DNA of 32,275 nucleotides, from positions 1 to 32,275 of the forward strand of contig CACIHQ010000013.1 of NCBI GenBank assembly GCA_902586495.1, given 5' to 3'. Source of the DNA: an uncultured Pelagibacteraceae bacterium. Its GTDB lineage: Bacteria; Pseudomonadota; Alphaproteobacteria; Pelagibacterales; Pelagibacteraceae. This document shows, piece after piece, positions 12 through 24,012 of the stretch; the first letter of the stretch is position 1; each line of letters begins with the position of its first letter. A model generated the notes under the pieces. The model did not search any database. It was not told where the DNA came from and saw only the letters and a program-made list of their open reading frames with translations. Position numbers and translations under genes: made by a program.

Positions 12-911
12 TTAAATAAGATATTGAGAATAATCTTTTTTTTCAATAATATCTTTTTTATTTACTTTGTTTTTAATTTCATCATAGTTCATTTTGTTTA
101 TTCCCGGATAGGGTAAATTAATCGGAAAATTATACTTTAGTTTAAATCGAGCCCAATCCTCAGCCAAAGTAACTTGCCTTCTGATCAATTTCTTTTTTTT
201 TTCTACTTCTGGAAGATAATCAAAATTAATGTTTCTATGATGAAAACAAAAAGCTCCCTTTGATAAAATACATTTAAAATTATGCGCTTTAGCACGGAAG
301 CCAAAATCTGCATCTCCAAAATAATCCTTAAAATTATTACAATCAAAATATCCAATTTTTTCTAATAATTTTCTATTAACTAAAAAGCTATCTCCAACAA
401 GATAATCTTCTTCAATATAATTATTTTTTTCTTTCGAGAATATCTCTTTTGAAATTTCATTTGGATGCTTGTTAATTTTATCTCTAAGATCAATATTATG
501 TGTGGATTTATTGTTATCTACGAAGTTAGATACACCCCTAACATAGCCAATATTTTCCTCGATGTTTGAGATATTGATTAATTCCTCTATGAAATATGAA
601 TTGATATACATATCATTAGATACGAAAATAGTTTTTTCACTAGTGGAGTTTGACAGAACACAATTTACACTTTGAGTGTAACCCAGGTTTTTAGTGAAAT
701 GAAAAACTTTAACGTCCTTAAATTCTTTTTTTTGATTAAAAAAATAATCTTTAATTTTGCCTTTATCTGGGGAAAAATCGTCAATCAATATAACTTCATA
801 AGTACCCTCTACTGAGTTTTTAATTGCTTGAATACAGTTTTTTGTAGATATTAAATTACCGAATGCCGATACTCCGATTGTGATTTTTTCTTTGCTGAAA
901 TATTTGTTCAT
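12..911 (-). CDS. Family 2 glycosyltransferase
   Basis: GT-A fold glycosyltransferase, likely transferring a sugar from a nucleotide-sugar donor in surface polysaccharide synthesis; the acceptor is unknown. The protein opens with a beta strand and the family's ITIGVSAFGN-type start, then YEVILIDDFSPD, a KNLGYTQSVN segment and a VSNDMYIN motif that probably replaces the DXD metal site. The later GDADFGFRAK stretch is typical of GT2 enzymes. The open frame reaches up to 947, but those extra 12 codons lie in the tRNA gene. I chose the ATG at 909-911 (about 299 residues) because AAGGA stands five bases before it. It follows the tRNA by nine bases and may be read from the rpoD transcript. It could be the edge of a surface-polysaccharide region extending beyond the window. 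The family call is firm; the substrate is not. Confidence 0.85.
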   Translation of the reverse strand: MNKYFSKEKITIGVSAFGNLISTKNCIQAIKNSVEGTYEVILIDDFSPDKGKIKDYFFNQKKEFKDVKVFHFTKNLGYTQSVNCVLSNSTSEKTIFVSNDMYINSYFIEELINISNIEENIGYVRGVSNFVDNNKSTHNIDLRDKINKHPNEISKEIFSKEKNNYIEEDYLVGDSFLVNRKLLEKIGYFDCNNFKDYFGDADFGFRAKAHNFKCILSKGAFCFHHRNINFDYLPEVEKKKKLIRRQVTLAEDWARFKLKYNFPINLPYPGINKMNYDEIKNKVNKKDIIEKKDYSQYLI

Positions 912-920
912 TTTTTCCTT

Positions 921-995
921 TGGTGGGCCGTGTTGGTTACGCTCCAACTACCCCTGCAATGTCAATGCAGTACTCTACTATTGAGCTAACGGCCC
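921..995 (-). tRNA. tRNA-Val (anticodon GAC) with aberrant D- and T-loops
   Basis: The minus strand folds into a full cloverleaf: acceptor GGGCCGT with ACGGCCC (7 of 7 pairs), D-stem GCTC with GAGT, anticodon stem CTGCA with TGCAG, anticodon loop TTGACAT (GAC, valine), variable loop GGGTA, T-stem GTTGG with CCAAC, discriminator A and an encoded CCA end. The loops are odd. The D-loop AATAGTA lacks the G18-G19 pair of guanines, and the T-loop is AGCGTAA where nearly all bacteria have TTCRANN, so T54, T55 and A58 are all absent. It begins five bases after the rpoD stop and ends nine bases before the glycosyltransferase start, so it is probably cut from a longer transcript. It may be a functional but divergent tRNA or one with a special role. 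Confidence 0.85.
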
Positions 996-1000
996 AGATA

Positions 1001-2825
1001 TTAACTTTCCAAGAAACTTTTTAGCTGTTTTGACCTACTAGGGTGTTTTAACTTCCTCAAAGCTTTAGCTTCAATTTGTCTAATACGCTCTCTTGTTACA
1101 GAAAATTGCAAACCTACTTCCTCTAAAGTATGATCAGTGTTCATTCCAACTCCAAATCTCATTCTTAAAACTCTTTCTTCTCTTGGTGTAAGTGTAGATA
1201 ATATTTTTGTAGTTGCCTCTCCTAGATTTGACTTGATTGCTTGTTCTAGTGGTGCAAGAGCTTTTGTGTCTTCTATAAAGTCTCCTAGGCTGCTGTCTTC
1301 TTCATCACCAACTGGTTTTTCAAGGGAGACTGGTTCTTTTGAAATTTTGAGTACCTTTCTTACTTTATCCAAAGGCATCCTTAGTTTTTTTGCTAATTCT
1401 TCAGGTGTTGCCTCTCTTCCAAATTCACTAAGTATTAATCTTTGAGTTCGAACAATCTTATTTATAGTTTCAATCATATGAACAGGAATTCTGATTGTTC
1501 TAGCTTGATCAGCAATCGATCTTGTGATTGCTTGTCTAATCCACCAAGTGGCATATGTAGAAAATTTATAACCTCTTCTATATTCAAATTTATCAACAGC
1601 TTTCATTAGTCCAATATTACCCTCTTGAATTAGATCTAAAAATTGCAGACCTCGGTTTGTATATTTTTTTGCAATTGAAATTACTAATCTCAAGTTTGCT
1701 TCAACCATTTCTTTCTTGGCAATTCTAGACTCTTTCTCTCCCTTTTGAATTCTACTAACTAATTTTTTATAATCAGTAACAGACATTCCTAATTTATGAC
1801 TTATCTCTACTAATCTATCTCTAATATCTTTAAACTCACTTTTATTTTTTGAAAAAAATTGTTTCCATAAAGTATTAGTGTCTAAAAATTTTTTTAAATT
1901 TGGATTAATTTCATTACCTATATAAAATTTAATAAATTCATTTCTAGAAATTTTATGGTCCAAGGCTAATCTTAAGAGATTACCTTCTAGTGAAACTATT
2001 CTTTTATTTTCTACATAGTGCTTTTGTACTAATTCCTCCAGTACAGATGGCGATAGTTGAAGAGATTTAATATTTTCTAATATTTCATTTACAATTTTGT
2101 CATGTCCTTTTTCTTTAGCGGGCGAGAAAGTCTTAGAATTTAAAACACAATCTAGTTTTTCTTTTTGATACTTGATTAATTTATTATATTCTTTGGTCAA
2201 TGTGTTAACAGTTTTAAGAACCTTAGGTTTTATTTCGCTTTCCATTGCAGCAAGAGTGGGATTGAAGTCATCCTCTTCTTCGTTGGAACCTTCCTCTTTT
2301 TCTATTTCTCCAGAATTTTTTTGCTTTGCGCTAGGACCTGTAGTTTCATCTTCCATATAATTGGTGTCAATATCAATAATTTCTCTGACTAAAATTTCAT
2401 CTTTTTGAAGTTTTTCATTCCATTCAAAAAATTGTTGGGCTGTTATGGGACTTTGTGACAATGCAATTAACATGACGTCTTTCCCAGCTTCAATTCTTTT
2501 TGCTATAGCAATCTCGCCTTCTCTTGATAATAATTCAACACCCCCCATTTCTCTTAGGTACATTCTTATTGGGTCATCACTTTTCTCAATTGTTTTTCCT
2601 TCTTCTTTTGAGGAATTATCTTTTTTTCTTAAAACTTTAAAATCCGATTTTTTTTTCTACTAAAGTTACTTTTTCATCAAGAATATGAATAAATGCCTGG
2701 GCAAGATTTTCATCTGACAAATTCCTTTTTCCTAGGGATTTGCTTAATTCTTCGTAAGTGATAAATCCTCTATGAGTGCCACGACCCATTAATCTTGCAA
2801 ATGATTTTGTAATAATTCTTTCCAC
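1001..2825 (-). CDS. rpoD: RNA polymerase primary sigma factor RpoD (sigma-70), reading frame broken once
   Basis: Housekeeping sigma factor directing RNA polymerase to -35/-10 promoters. The main frame (1001-2563 from its first ATG) carries region 1.2 ([17 protein letters not shown]), the long non-conserved acidic region, region 2 ([17 protein letters not shown], then [13 protein letters not shown]), region 3, and region 4 with the helix-turn-helix [17 protein letters not shown]. Region 1.1 (about 62 codons with [14 protein letters not shown]) lies in another frame at 2637-2825 and opens with GTG at 2823-2825; no in-frame ATG precedes it. The frames meet at a run of nine A. Dropping one A gives a continuous protein of about 607 residues, close to the E. 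coli length of 613. The gene follows dnaG by 65 bases, the normal macromolecular-synthesis operon order. The identity is certain; whether the break is real is not. Confidence 0.93.
2648..2656 (-). other. Apparent +1 frameshift in a nine-base poly-A run of rpoD
   Basis: On the coding strand the sequence reads GTAG followed by nine A and TCGG. With nine A the frame carrying region 1.1 stops at a TAA shortly after (ending VEKKIGF). With eight A it continues as [13 protein letters not shown] into the acidic linker and region 1.2. Long A runs are both error-prone for sequencers and known sites of polymerase slippage. Confidence 0.85.
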
Positions 2826-5255: not shown

Positions 5256-6453
5256 TTGATCAAAAAAGCAAAAAAAACTAACTCAAAAAAAATCTCAGAT
5301 AAACAAACAGGTATTTTAGTTCTTGAAAATAGACAAGTTTTTAAAGGTATTGGTATTGGCTACCAAGGAACTGCTACTGGAGAAGTTTGCTTTAATACCT
5401 CTCTTACAGGTTATCAAGAAATAATTTCTGATCCTTCTTATGCTGGACAAATAATCAATTTTACTTTCCCTCATATCGGTAACGTAGGTACCAATAAAGA
5501 AGATCATGAGTCAGATAAAATTTGGACAAAAGGTGTTATATTTAATTCAGAAATAACTTCACCTTCAAATTATAGATCTTTTTTTACATCTAGATGCTTG
5601 GCTCAAAAAAAATAAAATAGTTGGAATTACTGGATTAGACACTAGAAATTTAACCAATTTTATCAGAGATAAAGGTGCGCCAAAAGGCACAATATCAGTC
5701 TCAAAAACAGGAAAATTTAACATAAATAAGATCATCAATATGACTACAAAGTGGAGTGGATTAAAAAATTTAGATCTTGCAAAAGAAGTCACCACAAAGA
5801 AAAATTACCTTTGGAAAGGTTTTAAAACTTGGAAAAAACAAACTGGATATCAAAAAAATAAACGAAAATCTTTTCATGTCGTCGCTATAGACTATGGAAT
5901 TAAAAAAAATATTTTGAGATACTTTTCTGACTTTAAATGTAAAGTTACAGTTGTTCCGTGTAATGCTAGTTATGAAAAAATTTTATTATTAAAACCTGAT
6001 GGAATATTCCTATCAAATGGCCCTGGAGACCCTGCTGCAACAGGTAAATATGCTATAGGAGTCATAAAAAATTTAATTAAAAATAACTTTCCGATATTTG
6101 GAATTTGTCTTGGTCACCAATTGCTTGGTTTAGCCTTAGGAGCTAAAACTAAAAAAATGAAACTTGGACATCGTGGAGCCAATCATCCAGTAAAAAACTT
6201 TATTAATGACAGTGTTGAAATTACCAGTCAAAACCACGGTTTTGAAATTGTTAAAGAAAGTTTGCCAAGAAATCTGGAAATTACTCATAAGTCTTTGTTT
6301 GATGGAGGCATAGAGGGAATTCGCTTAAAAAATAAACCCGTGTTTTCTGTTCAATATCATCCAGAGTCAAATCCTGGACCTCAGGATAGTGTTTACCTTT
6401 TTCGAGAATTTATAAACAATATTAAAAAAAATGCCAAAAAGAAAAGATATTAA
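5256..6453 (+). CDS. carA: Carbamoyl-phosphate synthase small subunit CarA, reading frame broken once
   Basis: Glutaminase subunit that feeds ammonia to CarB for carbamoyl phosphate, the precursor of pyrimidines and arginine. The N-terminal part (5256-5615) carries the small-subunit domain ([34 protein letters not shown]). The C-terminal part carries the class I glutamine amidotransferase with nucleophile Cys in [15 protein letters not shown] and the His/Glu pair in [10 protein letters not shown]. The frames part at a run of seven T (5579-5585). Dropping one T gives [20 protein letters not shown], a smooth family sequence, and about 398 residues in all. The start is TTG at 5256, since the preceding in-frame codon is a stop and no ATG follows nearby; no clear ribosome binding site is seen. 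It overlaps carB by 23 bases. Confidence 0.92.
5579..5585 (+). other. Apparent +1 frameshift in a seven-base T run of carA
   Basis: With seven T the frame ends at a TAA at 5613-5615. With six T it reads [23 protein letters not shown] and joins the downstream frame well before the glutaminase domain. This is the second single-base excess in a homopolymer within 3 kb, both in essential genes, which points to read errors. Confidence 0.85.
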
Positions 6454-14369: not shown

Positions 14370-16421
14370 TTATTTCTTTTTAATCAGCTCAGTATTACTG
14401 ATATTTATTGCCATACAAGTAATATCATCTCTTAATTTTTCAGCACCCCAATTTAATTCTTTTTCAATAGACTCAACTATAGTTTTTGGTGTCACATCTG
14501 ACATGCCATCTATGATTTTTTGTACTCCTTCTGCGCCTAATTCCTCACCATTTTTCAAATAGCCTTCCGTTACACCATCTGTGTAAACCACAAATGTCTT
14601 ATCTTTTAAGTTCATGGTATTTGATTTGACCATAGACTCTGTGAAATATTTAACAATTCCAATGGGTGGCATTTCTGATTTGATATATTCATAATTTTTA
14701 TTTTGATCAAAAGTCAAAATACTTTCATGCCCTGCATTAATAAATACAAGTTCTCCAGTTTTAATATTTAATTTTCCAAAAACAGCGGTTACAAACATCC
14801 CTTTAAATTTAGCCTCAACAAGCTCATTATTGACACCGAACACAACTTTTTCTAATGGAAACTTCAAGTTCGTAAGCGTTCTAAATATTGAAGATGCTTT
14901 TGCCATATACATACCCGCTTTGACCCCTTTTCCTGATACATCGGCTAATGTGAAGAAGTATTCTTCCGGGGTAGATCTTACCACATCAAAATAATCTCCC
15001 GATACGTCTCTTGCAGGAACGTTTCTTGCAAAAATAAAATTTTCAAATTTTGATATATCTGGAAATAAGCTTTTTTGAACTCCTGCAGCTAATTCTCTTT
15101 CTTTTAATAATTTTGCTTCTTTTTGTAAGTTATCTAAAGCTATTTTGTTTTCCTCAATAAATCTAAAATAAAGACCCGTTAAAAAAGTAACGGTTACAAT
15201 AAATATAGGATAACTCATATCTACTAATTCAGATCTAAATTTATAAATAGAAAATCCAATAATTATGATTGCTAAAATGTTTCCAAAGAAAATCGATAAA
15301 CTTAGTTTTGGTTTTACTTTTTGAGATAAAATAAATGTAATTAAAGCAACGATAATAGAAAACAATAATTCAAATATATATGTGTTTGGATTTCTAACCA
15401 AATACGATTGGTCCAAAATATTTTCAATAACATTAGCATGAACTTCAACTCCTGGTATAGTTACCCCAAGAGGAGTTTTAACTAAATCGAATAAGCCTTG
15501 TGCTGACGCGCCAATTAAAACATATTTATCTTTAAAAAAATCTGTTTGAAATTTACCATCATAAACATCTCCAGCAGAAATATATTGGTTTTTATCTGAC
15601 TTTTTATATTTAATCCAAATGATCCCATTAGGATCAGAGTCGATTTTGTGAGGTCTTGCACTTATTCTTTGAATTCCAACTTCATTTAATTCTACATAAA
15701 TATTTTTTTGTTTGGAACCAACTCTAACCATCTCTAAACCCATAGTTGGATACATTTTTTTATTGAATTGAACAATTAAAGGTAGAGATCTAATGATACC
15801 GTCTAATTGATCTAAAAAAGAGATAGATCCTAAACCTTTGACATTTTTTTCTAATACTTCTAGTGAGCCTATGGAATAAGGATAAGAGTAAGTAAATTGT
15901 TTTGGTTCCCCACCTTTAGATAAAAATCTAGCTTTTGCTTTTCGATCATAGTTTGAATGAGACGGAACATTGCTTCCCAGAACTGCTATTATAGATTTAG
16001 ACTCTTTAAGTTTTTCAGAGAATATATCATCCGGACTTTTTAAATTCTGAAGTTCTGCTATGTCAGAGGGAATTAAACCATACGATTTAATTATAGCATC
16101 GGGTGATTGTTTATCTTTTTCAGTGAAAAAAATATCAAAACCTATCGCCTTTGGGTTTGACTCGTTTAGCTTATCTAAAATTTCTGCAAAGACAATTCTG
16201 TTCCAAGGAAACTGACCAAACTTACCTAAACTTTTTTCATCAATATCTATAATTACAACATCTGAATTTTTTTTTTCTGCAAATACTTTTTGGTAAAGAT
16301 CAAAACTTAAAAAGGATATTGATTTGATAAAACTCGGGTTAAGGATCTTTAAAAAAATTAAGAGAACAAGTAAAGCAAAGAAAACTGCGTAATTTAGATT
16401 TTTATGTAAAATTGCTTTCAC
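14370..16421 (-). CDS. CHASE2-domain membrane sensor with SpoIIE/RsbU-type PP2C phosphatase
   Basis: A 683-residue membrane receptor. TM1 (residues 11-27) leads to a large periplasmic CHASE2 domain (about 30-340, with VVIIDIDEKSLGKFGQFPW, GFDIFF and YVLIGASAQGLFDLVKTPLG), then three more membrane helices (348-366, 376-393, 402-420), a short coiled coil and a cytoplasmic phosphatase (about 445-675). Metal-binding acidic residues are intact: GDYFD (475), ADVSGKG (493), TDGVTE (615) and RDD (664). Such phosphatases dephosphorylate STAS antagonists in partner switching; the nearest candidates are the two STAS proteins at 22989-23569. The start codon is GTG with no strong ribosome binding site. 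It is first in a likely operon with the two propeller proteins. The ligand is unknown. Confidence 0.9.
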   Translation of the reverse strand: MKAILHKNLNYAVFFALLVLLIFLKILNPSFIKSISFLSFDLYQKVFAEKKNSDVVIIDIDEKSLGKFGQFPWNRIVFAEILDKLNESNPKAIGFDIFFTEKDKQSPDAIIKSYGLIPSDIAELQNLKSPDDIFSEKLKESKSIIAVLGSNVPSHSNYDRKAKARFLSKGGEPKQFTYSYPYSIGSLEVLEKNVKGLGSISFLDQLDGIIRSLPLIVQFNKKMYPTMGLEMVRVGSKQKNIYVELNEVGIQRISARPHKIDSDPNGIIWIKYKKSDKNQYISAGDVYDGKFQTDFFKDKYVLIGASAQGLFDLVKTPLGVTIPGVEVHANVIENILDQSYLVRNPNTYIFELLFSIIVALITFILSQKVKPKLSLSIFFGNILAIIIIGFSIYKFRSELVDMSYPIFIVTVTFLTGLYFRFIEENKIALDNLQKEAKLLKERELAAGVQKSLFPDISKFENFIFARNVPARDVSGDYFDVVRSTPEEYFFTLADVSGKGVKAGMYMAKASSIFRTLTNLKFPLEKVVFGVNNELVEAKFKGMFVTAVFGKLNIKTGELVFINAGHESILTFDQNKNYEYIKSEMPPIGIVKYFTESMVKSNTMNLKDKTFVVYTDGVTEGYLKNGEELGAEGVQKIIDGMSDVTPKTIVESIEKELNWGAEKLRDDITCMAINISNTELIKKK

Positions 16422-16480: not shown

Positions 16481-17749
16481 TTATTTTTTTCTTCTTCTTT
16501 TCTTTTTAGCTTTTTTCTTCTTAGCAGCTCTTTTCTTCTTCACTACTCTTTTCTTTTTAACGACTTTTCTCTTAGGTTTCTTCTTAACGACTTTTTTCTT
16601 CTTTTTAGGTTTTTTCTTTACTGCTTTTTTCTTTTTAGCTGGCTTTTTCTTCACTGCTTTTTTCTTTTTAGCTGGTTTTTTCTTAGTAGCTTTTTTCTTA
16701 GTAGCTTTTTTCTTAGTAGCTTTTTTCTTAGCAGGTTTTTTCTTAGTTACTTTTTTCTTTTCAGTTTTTGTTACTTTTTTCTTAACAGCCTTTTTCTTTT
16801 TGCCTTTTTTACCTTTTTTGGCTTTTTTCTTCTTACCTTTTTTCTTACCTTCATCTAATTTAGCTTTTTTCTTTTGCTTTTTAGCTTTAGCTTTAGCTTT
16901 CTGAGCTTTTTTCTTTTCAGCTCTTTCAGCTTTAATCGCTACTTTCTTCTCTTTATCTTTTTGTATGTTCTCTTTAATTATTGTTTTAATTTCTTCTTTT
17001 TCAAAACCCAGAGCTTTTAGTTCTTTTTTAAGAGTTTTTCTTAACTGTTTTCTTTCAGCTTTAGTTTCATTTGGTGAAAGTTTCGCAACTCTTAACGCTT
17101 TCATCTTTTTGTTAAATTTCTTTAATTGATTTTTAGTGATTTTTTTCGCTTGTCCCGGAGCTTTTCCTTTTGACATAGAAGCCATGCTGTAAGGATTATC
17201 TAATAAAGTTTGACCAAGATTATTTCCAACTAAAACTGCACCTGGTCTCATACCTAAGGTATTATTTTTTCCAGGACCAATTAATAATGTATCTGTTTTT
17301 CCTTTTGAAACTATAGTTTGAAATTCTGTTCCTCTTGAACCTAAAGTTCCCTCAGGAACTTCAACCGTAAGGCTATCAGGATTTTTTTTACTAATTAACC
17401 CTGAGATAACTTTTAAACTTCCTTGTTTTACACTCGCTACAATTTTTCCATCATTTGTTTCTGGATCAAAAATAAATGTATCCATTACAACTTCTGAGTC
17501 CTCGCCAACTGTAAAAGTTGACTGATCTAATAGTAAAATTTGCGTACCCGAACCTGGTGCAGCATAAATTGTTTCATTTAAGTAAATTTTGTCTCCGGCT
17601 TTTAATTCTCTTGTTTCAGTTTTTACTGTTCCAGATATAGCTCCGACTATTCCAACAAGTTGCTTTTCAATACTTAGCTTCTCTGCAGAATTTGCATAAG
17701 AAGAAAGAATTAAAAATAACCCAATAACTGCACTGAATAATTTTTTCAT
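16481..17749 (-). CDS. Secreted FecR-domain protein with a long lysine-rich tail
   Basis: A 422-residue protein with a signal peptide (residues 1-22, ending ANSA) and one FecR-like domain (about 33-160: VGAISGTVKTETRELKAGDK, QILLLDQSTFTVGEDSEV, VPEGTLGSRGTEFQ). A helical Lys/Glu stretch (200-262) follows, then a tail of about 160 residues (264-422) made almost wholly of Lys with Ala, Pro, Val and Thr, built from units such as KKKAT, KKKPA and KKKAV and ending in KKKRRRKK. The tail resembles histone H1-type tails, but the signal peptide puts the protein outside the cytoplasm, where it may bind polyanions such as DNA, LPS or polysaccharide; this is inference. It is not a classical FecR, which has a cytoplasmic N-terminus and one membrane helix. 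It sits 59 bases upstream of the CHASE2-phosphatase gene. Confidence 0.8.
   Translation of the reverse strand: MKKLFSAVIGLFLILSSYANSAEKLSIEKQLVGIVGAISGTVKTETRELKAGDKIYLNETIYAAPGSGTQILLLDQSTFTVGEDSEVVMDTFIFDPETNDGKIVASVKQGSLKVISGLISKKNPDSLTVEVPEGTLGSRGTEFQTIVSKGKTDTLLIGPGKNNTLGMRPGAVLVGNNLGQTLLDNPYSMASMSKGKAPGQAKKITKNQLKKFNKKMKALRVAKLSPNETKAERKQLRKTLKKELKALGFEKEEIKTIIKENIQKDKEKKVAIKAERAEKKKAQKAKAKAKKQKKKAKLDEGKKKGKKKKAKKGKKGKKKKAVKKKVTKTEKKKVTKKKPAKKKATKKKATKKKATKKKPAKKKKAVKKKPAKKKKAVKKKPKKKKKVVKKKPKRKVVKKKRVVKKKRAAKKKKAKKKRRRKK
16670..16741 (-). repeat. Short tandem repeats encoding KKKAT/KKKPA units
   Basis: Within the lysine-rich tail a 15-base unit (plus-strand phase TTAGTAGCTTTTTTC) recurs head to tail at least three times with near-identical copies. 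It encodes KKKAT units flanked by KKKPA. Such short units are prone to copy-number change by slippage in 15-base, frame-preserving steps. Confidence 0.8.
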
Positions 17750-19232: not shown

Positions 19233-21386
19233 CTATTTTCCAATACTTATTACTGTTAAATCATCAGACAGTTTTTGATTTTTGCTCGTATTTACGACCA
19301 TTTTAGTTATATCATTTAATTGTTGGGTGGTGTCTTTGTTGTAATTGGTCTCAATAATATCTATTGATCCGTCGATACCTATTTCTTGTCCTTTATCATT
19401 TAAGCTTTCAGATAATCCATCAGTAAAAGCATAAAACCTTGAGCCATTTAATTTCATTTTATTAATATTATAAATATTTTTGTCTTTCTGTTTAATAACT
19501 CCCAAAGGTGGAGCCGAACTTTCAAATTGTTCATATTTCCCTTTATCATTACGAACTATCGCAGGCTGATGACCTGCATTTACCCATCTAATTTCATCAG
19601 TAATCAAATTATATTCACCAACGATTGAGGTTACAAACATTCCTGCAGTTTTTGTATTATTTAAATCGTTATTCATATGCAAAACCATTTCGTCAGGATC
19701 TACTTTTGATTGGGATAAGACTTCAAATAATGTAGATGCTTTTGCCATGACCATGCCAGCGTGAATTCCTTTGCCAGCAACATCTGCAATTATGAAATAA
19801 ATGCTATCATTGTGAGGGTAAAAACTAAAGAAGTCGCCTGAAACCTCTCTAGCGGATATGTTGATGCCGTGCACAGGATAATTTTTTAAATTTCTTTTTG
19901 GTAAAAAGTTTTCTTGAACTTTTACTGCCAATTTAACCTCTTTTGAAATTCTCTCTCGCCATTTATTTTTTTCTTCTTCGGTTGTTTCAAGTTTACTCAT
20001 TAACTTGTTGTAATAAAGTCCGATAACCCCTCCGGCTGTAAAAGGGTCTTGAGGTCCTCTTACTTTAAGATCTCCAGATTCGGATTGTTTATTCAAAATT
20101 GAAATTAAGTCGTGCTCAATTGAAACGGCATTATGTTCTGCAATATTTAATCCTAATTCTTCTTGAACAGTGCTTACTCTTAATGGATAAAATTTATTTA
20201 TGAAATTTAAAATTACATATGAAGATATAAAAGTAAAAGATCCAATCGCTAAAATTCCAATTACTTGAATTTTGATTTGTGAAAATCTATCGAGACCCGT
20301 ATCTAAAATGCTAAGATCACTAAAAAAACCAACTGCTAAAGTTCCCCAAATACCTGCCGCTAAATGAACTGGGACAGCACCAACAACATCATCAATTTCA
20401 AATTTGTTTAAAAGTTCATTTACAGAAATTGCAATAATTGCACCGATGATACCAACAAAAATTGAAGTGACTGATGTCATTGAATTACATCCTGCTGTGA
20501 TTGCAACCAAACCTGCTAGCGGACCCAAGATAATATAAAAAGGATCAGGTTTTTTATGTTTAAAATAAGAAATACCTAATCCAGTTAATAAACCAAAAGC
20601 AGCGGCTAGAAATGTATTAATTAAAATTAAAGGCACTACTTCATCCATTGCACCGTTACTTCCGCCATTGAAACCAAACCAGCCAAACCATAAAATGAGT
20701 GTACCTAAAACAGCAAGTGGGAAACTCGAACCAGTAAATTTTCCTTTGTTAGCATCTGAGTATTTGCCAATTCTTGGTCCTAAAATTATTACTGCAGATA
20801 AAGCAATCCAACCACCAACCGAATGTACAATTGTACTACCTGCAAAATCAATAAAACCTAAATCAGACAACCATCCTGTTGTTCTCACTGAGCCAGTAAC
20901 AACTAATAACTGATCGACCGTATCATATTTTGAGAGATAACTTGAGGACCACGCCCAATGACCAACTATTGGATAAATTATTCCAGTTGCTAGGACAGTC
21001 ATAATTAAGTAACCATTAAATTTCATCCTCTCTGCAACAGCTCCAGAAATAATTGTTGCAGCAGTTGCAACAAACATTGCTTGAAATACAAAGTATGTCA
21101 TATATTCAGCTTTATTAGTTTTGAAAAAAAATAAATCGGTCCCAAAAAAACCGTAATAAGACGTACCAAACATTATACCAAAACCAAATATCCAGAAAAT
21201 AACTACAGATACTCCAAAATCAGCAGCATTTTTAAGTGCAACATTAATGCTATTTTTATGACGAGACAAACCAGTCTCCATACACATAAAACCTGCCTGC
21301 ATGATGAATACTAGAATAGCGCAATTTATAACCCACAAAGTGTCAATATTACTAGTCAGTACGTTGATGACTTCTTGAGGCATCAT
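19233..21386 (-). CDS. amt: Ammonium transporter (Amt) fused to SpoIIE/RsbU-type PP2C phosphatase
   Basis: A 717-residue fusion. Residues 1-400 form an Amt/Mep channel with about 11 membrane helices, the MCMETGLSRHKN motif after TM1, and the pore twin histidines H188 (STIVHSVGGW) and H341 (VPVHLAAGIWG). A linker (400-490) ends in a helix (KEVKLAVKVQENFLPKR), which in RsbU-type proteins couples the sensor to the phosphatase. The phosphatase (about 490-717) keeps the metal motifs GDFF (517), ADVAGKG (535), TDGLSE (656) and SDDL (707). The simplest role is an ammonium sensor or transporter that dephosphorylates a STAS antagonist. Amt proteins fused to other signalling domains are known; I do not recall a described case with this phosphatase type. 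It follows a small lipoprotein gene by 14 bases. Confidence 0.92.
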   Translation of the reverse strand: MMPQEVINVLTSNIDTLWVINCAILVFIMQAGFMCMETGLSRHKNSINVALKNAADFGVSVVIFWIFGFGIMFGTSYYGFFGTDLFFFKTNKAEYMTYFVFQAMFVATAATIISGAVAERMKFNGYLIMTVLATGIIYPIVGHWAWSSSYLSKYDTVDQLLVVTGSVRTTGWLSDLGFIDFAGSTIVHSVGGWIALSAVIILGPRIGKYSDANKGKFTGSSFPLAVLGTLILWFGWFGFNGGSNGAMDEVVPLILINTFLAAAFGLLTGLGISYFKHKKPDPFYIILGPLAGLVAITAGCNSMTSVTSIFVGIIGAIIAISVNELLNKFEIDDVVGAVPVHLAAGIWGTLAVGFFSDLSILDTGLDRFSQIKIQVIGILAIGSFTFISSYVILNFINKFYPLRVSTVQEELGLNIAEHNAVSIEHDLISILNKQSESGDLKVRGPQDPFTAGGVIGLYYNKLMSKLETTEEEKNKWRERISKEVKLAVKVQENFLPKRNLKNYPVHGINISAREVSGDFFSFYPHNDSIYFIIADVAGKGIHAGMVMAKASTLFEVLSQSKVDPDEMVLHMNNDLNNTKTAGMFVTSIVGEYNLITDEIRWVNAGHQPAIVRNDKGKYEQFESSAPPLGVIKQKDKNIYNINKMKLNGSRFYAFTDGLSESLNDKGQEIGIDGSIDIIETNYNKDTTQQLNDITKMVVNTSKNQKLSDDLTVISIGK

Positions 21387-22988: not shown

Positions 22989-23273
22989 ATGAAATTTAAG
23001 GTAAGTGAAGAAAATAATATTAGTACAGTTTTTCTTAATGGAGAGATAGACATGGATATCGCTGATAACGTCAGAGAAGTAGTCTTCCCTTTAATAGATG
23101 CTGGTAAAGAAGTCCATTTAAATTTAAAGGACGTTCAATATATGGACTCATCAGGAATATCAGTAATTGTTGAAAGCAATCAAAGAGCAAAACAAAAAAA
23201 CACTAAAGTCGAACTTAAAGAATTAAGTCAACCAGTTGAGAAAGTGTTAGCAATGGCAAAGAAATTTTTATGA
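22989..23273 (+). CDS. STAS-domain anti-sigma-factor antagonist (copy 1)
   Basis: A 94-residue SpoIIAA/RsbV-type protein, a single STAS domain from end to end. In this family the unphosphorylated antagonist binds the RsbW-type kinase and frees its target; kinase phosphorylation on the conserved serine turns it off and a PP2C phosphatase restores it. The phospho-site motif MDSSG is at residues 52-56, with Ser55 the likely acceptor. Its stop overlaps the start of a near-copy in an ATGA junction, showing tight coupling. The kinase gene follows as third gene. Confidence 0.93.
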   Translation: MKFKVSEENNISTVFLNGEIDMDIADNVREVVFPLIDAGKEVHLNLKDVQYMDSSGISVIVESNQRAKQKNTKVELKELSQPVEKVLAMAKKFL

Positions 23274-23569
23274 GCTACAAAGTAACTGAAGACGGAAATA
23301 TCAGCACGGTTTTTTTAGATGGTGAGATTGATATGGATAAAACTGAAGCTGCAAAAGAAGTAATTTTTCCATTAATCGATGCAGGTAAAGAAGTGCATCT
23401 TAATTTAAGTAATGTCCAATATATGGACTCATCGGGTATTTCAGTTTTAATTGAAAGTCATCAAAAAGCACTTGAGATGAATAATAAATTGATTGTTAAA
23501 GATGTGAGTAAATCAGTGCTTAAAGTAATTATGATGGCGAAACTGGAACAAATTTTAAACTTGGAGTAA
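23270..23569 (+). CDS. STAS-domain anti-sigma-factor antagonist (copy 2)
   Basis: A 99-residue paralogue of the preceding gene from tandem duplication. The first 60 residues align without gaps (VTEDGNISTVFLDGEIDMD against VSEENNISTVFLNGEIDMD) and MDSSG is again at residues 52-56. The last 30 residues differ more, notably a longer C-terminal helix ending EQILNLE. Two antagonists for one kinase would let two phosphatases act through separate substrates, or the pair may bind the kinase with different strength. It lies five bases before the kinase start. Confidence 0.93.
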   Translation: MSYKVTEDGNISTVFLDGEIDMDKTEAAKEVIFPLIDAGKEVHLNLSNVQYMDSSGISVLIESHQKALEMNNKLIVKDVSKSVLKVIMMAKLEQILNLE

Positions 23570-23574
23570 ATTCC

Positions 23575-24012
23575 ATGAATACTGAACAACCAGAATTAAA
23601 AAATATTTCTGAAAAAAAAGATTTTTTGGTTCGTTCATCAAGTCTTAAAGATGTCAGAACATTTTCCAGAGAAGTCTTTGAAAAGCTTGATTTAGATCAA
23701 AGTTTAAAAGATGAATTAGTTCTTGCTATTGCTGAAGCTGCACAAAATATTGTTAAACATGCCTATAAAGATTTTCCGGATACAGACGATAGAATGGTTG
23801 TGCAAATTTCTTGTAAAGATAATAAATTAGAAATTGCTTTTTTTGATAATGGGAAACCTGTTGAAAAAGAAAAAATTAAACATAGAGCAATCGATGATAT
23901 TAAACCGGGTGGGCTAGGCACTTTTTTTATTCAAGAAATAATGGACTCAATTGTTTTCAAAGAAGGTAACAAACCTTGGATCAACAACCTGGTATTAACA
24001 AAAAAATTATAA
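23575..24012 (+). CDS. RsbW/SpoIIAB-type anti-sigma kinase (HATPase)
   Basis: A 145-residue GHKL-fold serine kinase. The N-box helix ELVLAIAEAAQNIVKHAYK holds the catalytic Glu and the Mg-binding Asn. DNGKPV is the G1 box and PGGLGTFFIQEIMD the G2 region. Such proteins either bind a target (often a sigma factor) or phosphorylate their STAS antagonist. A GGAG site overlaps the end of the second STAS gene, showing translational coupling. No alternative sigma factor lies next to it, so the target is elsewhere or is not a sigma factor. The gene converges with pilC, with one base between the stops. Confidence 0.92.
   Translation: MNTEQPELKNISEKKDFLVRSSSLKDVRTFSREVFEKLDLDQSLKDELVLAIAEAAQNIVKHAYKDFPDTDDRMVVQISCKDNKLEIAFFDNGKPVEKEKIKHRAIDDIKPGGLGTFFIQEIMDSIVFKEGNKPWINNLVLTKKL

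Follow-up and report, generated by a model that had tools for sequence, protein, structure and literature searches.

A SAR11 tRNA-Val(GAC) gene with a putative alternative elbow, A18·G55

Introduction

The non-proteinogenic tRNA-Gly genes of staphylococci occur as extra copies beside a canonical gene with the same anticodon; their products do not bind EF-Tu and serve cell-wall peptide synthesis. In E. coli, suppressor tRNAs with altered D and T loops have reportedly been selected by the Steinberg group, and non-standard elbows are said to work in them. SAR11 is an abundant marine lineage. A nearly universal contact of G18 with U55 keeps tRNAs in their L shape. In the canonical elbow, as described in the available part of PMC4810234, residue 18 bonds with Psi55 and is intercalated between T-loop residues 57 and 58, and the G19-C56 pair presents an exposed flat face. 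In the UGNRA lonepair triloop, which is closed by a U-A pair, it is common for the triloop G and an A from outside the loop to combine into a composite GNRA tetraloop, as seen in T-loop-like motifs (available part of PMC2258182).

No report of an A18·G55 pair in tRNA was found in the open-licence literature; subscription journals may hold one. In the available part of a paper on SAR11 tRNA signatures (PMC3937112), G18, U55 and the T-loop were absent from the main text, and neither A18 nor G55 appeared in the available part of a review of T-loop modification (PMC7912444).

The window analysed here, a stretch of 32,275 nucleotides, is contig 13 of a Pelagibacteraceae draft genome of about 1.05 Mb that is 79.5% complete. 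Sequence comparison indicates that its tRNA-Val(GAC) gene probably encodes an active elongator tRNA of SAR11 with an alternative elbow, in which A18·G55 takes the usual place of G18·Psi55, G19-C56 is kept and the 54·58 pair is reversed to A·U. The new element would be a tRNA elbow built on a different 18-55 pair. A double swap that is natural and recurrent offers ready material for testing the requirements of the elbow and the need for Psi55 and TruB.

Identification and Structure of the tRNA-Val(GAC) Gene

Scanning of the window with ARAGORN showed a single tRNA, tRNA-Val(gac), at 921–995 on the minus strand (75 nt including CCA). The Rfam tRNA model (RF00005) gave this segment a score of 53.6 bits against a cut-off of 29, and the gene belonged to that family by its four-stem cloverleaf and its 7-nt anticodon and T-loops. 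All four stems were fully paired (−28.6 kcal/mol; z = −3.29 against 200 shuffles) and the CCA was encoded in the genome (921–923), as the original prediction had described. The marks of an elongator-type tRNA were present: U33, the anticodon GAC (961–963, minus strand, in the loop UUGACAU), A37, the discriminator A73 and the CCA.

The D-loop, AATAGTA (976–982, minus strand), consisted of seven residues without GG (A14 A15 U16 A18 G19 U20 A21; residue 17 was absent). A18 (979) replaced G18, and G19 (978), the partner of C56 (941), was retained. The T-loop (937–943, minus strand) was AGCGTAA (A54 G55 C56 G57 U58 A59 A60), in which G55 (942) replaced U55/Psi55 and the usual U54·A58 pair was reversed to A54 and U58 (939–943). 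Both loops had been read in this way in the original prediction, which listed the loss of T54, T55 and A58 together with that of G18, suggested that a G19-C56 pair might remain and held that canonical modification of positions 54 and 55 was impossible; the sequence agreed on each point, G19 and C56 both being present and neither residue 54 nor residue 55 being U. With the canonical bacterial elongator elbow the tRNA-Val shared the cloverleaf, the CCA, G19-C56, R57, the 7-nt T-loop, a Val anticodon and A73. It differed from that elbow (G18·Psi55, T54·A58) in having A18·G55, A54·U58 and A60, with no substrate for Psi55 or m5U54. Annotation rules that require GG and TTC will underrate genuine tRNAs.

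The upstream neighbour of the tRNA was an ORF on the same strand (1001–2563, minus strand), named by eye from its translation as an rpoD-like sigma factor gene. An rpoD C-terminal motif lay no more than 400 bases upstream of the variant in 87 of the 110 distinct flanks that were long enough, one further flank being too short. The location of the gene, on a chromosomal contig and adjoining the rpoD-like gene, was not that of a phage or prophage. On the other side, at 910–921 (minus strand), an ORF read by eye as a glycosyltransferase had a possible ATG start 8 bases past the tRNA CCA, so that the two may be transcribed together.

Conservation of the Variant tRNA-Val

Matches to the tRNA-Val were found in 29 of 61 genomes, all of them among the 37 genomes of the same genus and none among the 24 outside it; the match in G028 covered the 3′ half only. 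A further 20 genomes of the genus, the single-contig genome G012 among them, carried the identical 75 bases. Among the listed matches to the A18+G55 pattern in named genome contigs, 69 of 119 were this identical gene. By their taxon titles, 118 of those 119 belonged to Pelagibacteraceae, Pelagibacterales or Candidatus Pelagibacter (SAR11), and one to a Verrucomicrobia MAG; the contig with the latter label (L106) carried a tRNA-Asn(GUU) with the loops AACAGTA and TGCGAAT and may be viral. On the basis of these titles, genus g1 was taken to be Pelagibacter, family f1 to be Pelagibacteraceae and the order to be Pelagibacterales. Sequencing or assembly error could be considered for a draft genome of this completeness; it is refuted by the recurrence of the identical gene in the 20 genomes and the 69 matches, and its probability is negligible.

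Among the 11 distinct Val variants that have the same length, 12 of the 21 stem pairs varied; in 11 of these both sides had changed, and no pair was broken. The anticodon loop and the variable loop were invariant. The D-loop was AATAGTA in eight variants and differed by one base in the other three (AAAAGTA in two, AATAGAA in one); the T-loop was AGCGTAA in eight, AGCGTTA in two and AGCATAA in one. A twelfth variant, in G079, had a D-loop one base longer, and AGCGTAA was the T-loop of nine of the 12. The prediction that the gene was not decaying at random was supported, the loops being nearly fixed in relatives while the changes in the stems kept their pairing.

Canonical tRNA-Val(GAC) genes were found in relatives, among them three genomes of the genus (G081, G082, and G191), whose genes have the same acceptor stem as the window variant. 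The canonical and the variant state thus sit on backbones that are close relatives of each other. The original prediction had named canonical relatives as a finding that would speak against it. Such relatives do exist, and they point to an evolutionary switch and not to a misreading of the variant.

In G069, a second tRNA-Val copy was truncated at its 5′ end, with only the 3′ part left (L267, contig 1, 397130–397300). This copy suggested an integration site, but the surrounding 12 kb consisted of ordinary-looking ORFs, among which no integrase was recognised by eye.

Covariation of Residues 18 and 55 in Pelagibacterales

The window's genome had 28 tRNAs, of which 26 had T-loops of the form TTCGANN. 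The two exceptions were tRNA-Val(GAC) and tRNA-Phe(GAA), both with A18 and G55. In the complete relative G012, 30 of 32 tRNAs were read and comprised 28 canonical tRNAs, an A18/G55 tRNA-Val(GAC) and an A18/G55 tRNA-Phe(GAA); a pattern search of this genome likewise found one GAC tRNA and one GAA tRNA, both A18/G55.

For a survey of Pelagibacterales, 40 genomes were chosen and 37 had a match, giving 60 complete genes for tRNA-Val(GAC) or tRNA-Phe(GAA) and the 5′-truncated G069 copy. In all 60 complete genes, U55 was accompanied by G18-G19 and G55 by A18-G19. Among the 118 distinct tRNAs of the Pelagibacterales loci, 93 were GG/U55, 25 were AG/G55 and none was mixed, these counts, like those of the viral tRNAs below, being counts of sequences and not of independent evolutionary events. 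The 25 A18/G55 tRNAs comprised 12 Val, 9 Phe, 3 His, and 1 Thr. Their 54·58 pair was A54·U58 in 12 of 12 Val and U54·A58 in the other 13 (Phe, His, and Thr). In the alphaproteobacterial class sample, a looser A18/G55 pattern matched 3 of 385 genomes, all of genus g1, the window's genus. One of the A18/G55 patterns was confined to D-loops of 7 nt with a GCTC stem and to T-loops with A59 and G57.

The joint change of the two loops, put forward in the original prediction as a sign of co-evolution, was thus seen in many tRNAs as covariation of A18 with G55. Relaxed constraint would explain the variant by drift of the loops in a streamlined genome, with the 18-55 contact gone, and the genomes are indeed small and TruB, the Psi55 synthase, was not found in genus g1. 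Drift, however, predicts mixed combinations, and none occurred in the 118 tRNAs; moreover, the loops barely vary while the stems turn over, and the other 26 tRNAs of the same genome retain TTCGANN loops. Because of the 18-55 covariation, relaxed constraint is strongly disfavoured and is considered very unlikely. The A18/G55 combination looks, from these sequences, like a working alternative elbow and not like a broken gene.

A different T-loop was seen in SAR11 tRNA-Thr(GGU), in which nine distinct genes (at loci L100, L107, L113, L118, L130, L133, L162, L169, and L184) had GTCAGTA (G54, U55, G58, A60) with canonical G18-G19 and an odd 54·58 pair.

Role in Translation

The tRNA-Val(GAC) would be charged with valine and would read GUU and GUC in ordinary translation. 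In 15 ORFs of the window, GUU and GUC made up 307 of 498 Val codons, and GUU alone, the most used, made up 252 of 498. A canonical tRNA-Val(UAC) was also present in the genome; since it covers the Val box as well, tRNA-Val(GAC) alone is not proven to be essential. tRNA-Phe is indispensable to the cell. The A18/G55 tRNA-Phe was found in the window's genome and in many others of the genus, and because the only Phe tRNA found in the complete genome G012 carries the swap, the A18/G55 elbow must work in translation.

The original prediction had raised a special, non-translational role, as in the staphylococcal tRNA-Gly that feeds cell-wall synthesis. A D-loop without GG is common to that tRNA and to tRNA-Val(GAC), and the presence of a second Val isoacceptor, the canonical UAC, would leave room for such a role. 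The staphylococcal tRNAs, however, are extra copies, whereas one GAC tRNA each was found in the window's own draft genome (G000) and, by the pattern search, in the complete genome G012; the search for a second tRNA-Val(GAC), proposed in the original prediction, found none in either. The GAC anticodon reads the commonest Val codon of the window ORFs, and the swap is shared by tRNA-Phe, tRNA-His and tRNA-Thr genes of the group and by viral tRNAs of 20 isotypes. Unlike the staphylococcal tRNA-Gly, therefore, tRNA-Val(GAC) is the only copy found with its anticodon, has a matched change in the T-loop, keeps G19 with C56 and shares its swap with an indispensable tRNA-Phe. A non-translational role is not supported by these findings and is regarded as highly improbable.

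A18/G55 in Viral tRNAs

In IMG/VR, the scan for A18/G55 with a 7-nt D-loop gave 122 listed matches, 115 of which fold as tRNA (74 distinct, 15 anticodons), and the scan with an 8-nt D-loop gave 121 listed matches, of which 115 fold as tRNA. Control scans of the whole collection, all with a 7-nt D-loop, found 11 stretches for A18/U55 (6 tRNA), 11 for G18/G55 (0 tRNA), 14 for A18 with A or C55 (1 tRNA), and 7 for Y18/G55 (1 tRNA).

A total of 1457 distinct tRNAs were parsed from the IMG/VR loci: GG/U55C56 in 1049, AG/G55C56 in 260, AG/U55C56 in 9, GG/G55C56 in 2, and other classes in the remaining 137, including 22 GG/C55C56. The loci were picked by a match to the A18/G55 or a control pattern, so that the 260 among 1457 cannot be read as a frequency, and five of the nine AG/U55C56 rows come from loci that were themselves retrieved with the A18/U55 control scan. 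After removal of the 136 tRNAs that matched the two seed patterns, there were 124 A18/G55, 1051 GG/U55 and 146 others. The 42 control-scan loci had 1 A18/G55, 69 GG/U55 and 14 others. The 2 × 2 tests of residue 18 against residue 55 used 1320 of the 1457 viral rows and ignored relatedness.

Exceptions in the viral table were A18 with U55 (11, of which nine had C56), G18-G19 with G55 (2), G18-G19 with C55 (22), and A18 with C55 (2). A further 18 viral tRNAs with G55 were called neither AG nor GG at 18-19, and at least four of them seem to have a pyrimidine at 18. In 35 distinct viral tRNAs, G18-A19 occurred with U55-U56, which is a Watson-Crick switch of the 19-56 pair and serves as an internal positive control. 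One viral tRNA each in L435, L526 and L582 had an apparent C19 with G56 for G19-C56, together with A18/G55.

The 260 viral A18/G55 tRNAs came from 144 loci and covered all 20 isotypes. They made up at least half of the parsed tRNAs in 6 of the 94 loci with at least five tRNAs (L348, L582, L586, L526, L546, and L590), with a maximum of 14 of 15 in L348. Among named phages, Erwinia phage Cronus had an A18/G55 tRNA-Met, one of 17 ARAGORN tRNAs. In the fetched stretches of six others (Breeniome, Aeh1, Atu_ph07, S-RIM4, CR3, and Nican01), all 84 parsed tRNAs were GG/U55 and none was A18/G55; in the stretches of BDU-MI-1 and BcepSaruman, read by eye, all 11 tRNAs had U55 and none was A18/G55. A BcepSaruman tRNA-Leu (L634, 908–993) without GG had the T-loop TTGGAGT, with U55, and seems to have C19 with G56. 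The viral A18/G55 tRNAs offer a way to ask how phage tRNAs handle the modification enzymes of the host.

Three distinct viral tRNA-Val(GAC) genes had the T-loop AGCGTAA, identical to that of the window tRNA. This identity, the frequency of the elbow in some metagenomic phage contigs, and the restriction of the looser pattern to genus g1 in the alphaproteobacterial sample (three of 385 genomes) would fit an acquisition of the A18/G55 tRNAs by Pelagibacter from phages. Comparison with the loops masked, in which the phage genes were those of the examined loci, pointed the other way: 11 of the 12 distinct variant Val genes were closest to canonical Pelagibacterales Val(GAC) and not to phage genes, the exception (L052) being a tie at 40 with a canonical phage gene, and eight of nine Phe variants were closest to canonical Pelagibacterales Phe, the exception (L080) being nearer to phage genes (48 vs. 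45). The window tRNA also had no blastn match in 50,697 phage records (E 0.01). Phage origin is accordingly held to be very improbable.

Distribution of TruB

A domain search for TruB_N (PF01509) found it in none of the 235 genomes of genera g1, g8, g9 and g10, compared with 51 of the 62 genomes of other genera and 14 of 14 control genomes. A18/G55 tRNAs matching the 7-nt D-loop pattern were present in 216 of the 235 genomes of the TruB-less genera (g1, 183/198; g8, 27/29; g9, 6/7; g10, 0/1) and in 2 of the 62 others (g7, 2/4; g5, 0/2; g6, 0/3; second family, 0/53); the pattern behind these counts is limited to D-loops of 7 nt with a GCTC stem, and the genome set includes many incomplete drafts. 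All tRNA-Phe swaps, among the matches listed, were in TruB-less genera. For TrmFO, 0 of 12 genomes gave a match over the cut-off; there were sub-cut-off matches only, which presumably represent the related MnmG family.

The distributions of TruB and of the A18/G55 tRNAs are in favour of an explanation, compatible with the alternative elbow, in which the loss of TruB made U55 dispensable and A18·G55 was then fixed as a pseudouridine-free elbow. Against it, the independent events are few, TruB having probably been lost once or twice, and the TruB counts include many incomplete drafts. Two genomes of g7 (G131 and G190) were TruB-positive yet had the Val swap (in G190, truB lies between rbfA and pnp), and the TruB-positive genome G061 (g5) had an A18/G55 tRNA-His that is invisible to the 7-nt pattern. 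Conversely, canonical Phe and Val were retained in the TruB-less genomes G311 (g10) and G082 (g1), as was canonical Phe in a further five g1 genomes. Phage hosts generally possess TruB. TruB-positive genomes with Val or His swaps weaken the case for TruB loss as the sole cause. The loss may favour the swap, being neither needed nor sufficient, and would be a contributing cause at most; as the explanation of the swap it is a possibility that we rate somewhat below even.

Proposed Structure of the Alternative Elbow

In all 285 A18/G55 tRNAs (260 viral and 25 Pelagibacterales), residue 57 was a purine and residue 56 was C, so that the loop reads G-C-R and the partner of G19 is kept. R57 and C56 were equally constant in canonical tRNAs and are therefore no specific sign of a GNRA-like turn.

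In the elbow proposed here, A18, like G18 in the canonical elbow, would intercalate between residues 57 and 58. It would also be the outside A that completes a composite GNRA-like turn with G55-C56-R57. The A18·G55 pair would probably be sheared, as in GNRA loops; this reading draws on the G-C-R loop, a G-N-R triloop and an A from elsewhere being known to form a composite GNRA in T-loop-like motifs. The resulting turn would hold the L shape without pseudouridine, and the G19-C56 face, which is used by the ribosome and other partners, would stay.

Comparison with the UGNRA type R1 lonepair triloop, a riboswitch T-loop motif (available part of PMC2258182), showed that the tRNA-Val has the G-N-R triloop (G55 C56 G57) and, in A18, a candidate outside A at the intercalating place, the contact between them being a proposed one. 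The tRNA-Phe also shares the U54·A58 closing pair of the motif. The tRNA-Val, by contrast, closes with A54·U58, and it is not filed as a UGNRA member because of this pair; its elbow may work like a UGNRA composite turn, by an analogy that puts the motif into a tRNA elbow as a proposal. The geometry of the Val elbow may also differ from that of tRNA-Phe, A54·U58, which remains complementary, standing against the consensus U·A. A54·U58 was also found in 14 viral A18/G55 tRNAs and in 26 viral GG/U55 tRNAs; since it occurs in both viral classes, the 54·58 reversal is separable from the 18-55 swap. Compared with the laboratory selections of the Steinberg group, the A18/G55 tRNAs are natural, recurrent and conserved.

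A wider proposal can be put forward only tentatively and is thought somewhat unlikely in its full form. In it, bacteria and phages would have a second natural kind of tRNA elbow, A18·G55, a composite GNRA turn that frees the tRNA from Psi55 and TruB; phages would use it for every isotype and, in some contigs, for almost the entire tRNA set, and SAR11 would have fixed it in essential chromosomal tRNAs, with TruB loss helping.

Other Features of the Window

Several other genes of the window were unusual. An ORF on the minus strand (19233–21386) encodes a fusion of an ammonium transporter (PF00909) with a SpoIIE-type phosphatase (PF07228). In its neighbourhood were a CHASE2-SpoIIE protein (14370–16421), an HATPase_c_2 anti-sigma-like protein (23575–24012), and two STAS-like ORFs (22989–23569), the first of which was confirmed as STAS. 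The fusion and its neighbours resemble a partner-switching set, for which ammonium could be the signal.

At 5256–6453 on the plus strand, a gene read by eye as carA-like lay in two frames with a switch at about 5615, which is a frameshift or an assembly error. At 16481–17749 on the minus strand, a FecR-domain protein had a long, lysine-rich, repeat-like C-terminal tail.
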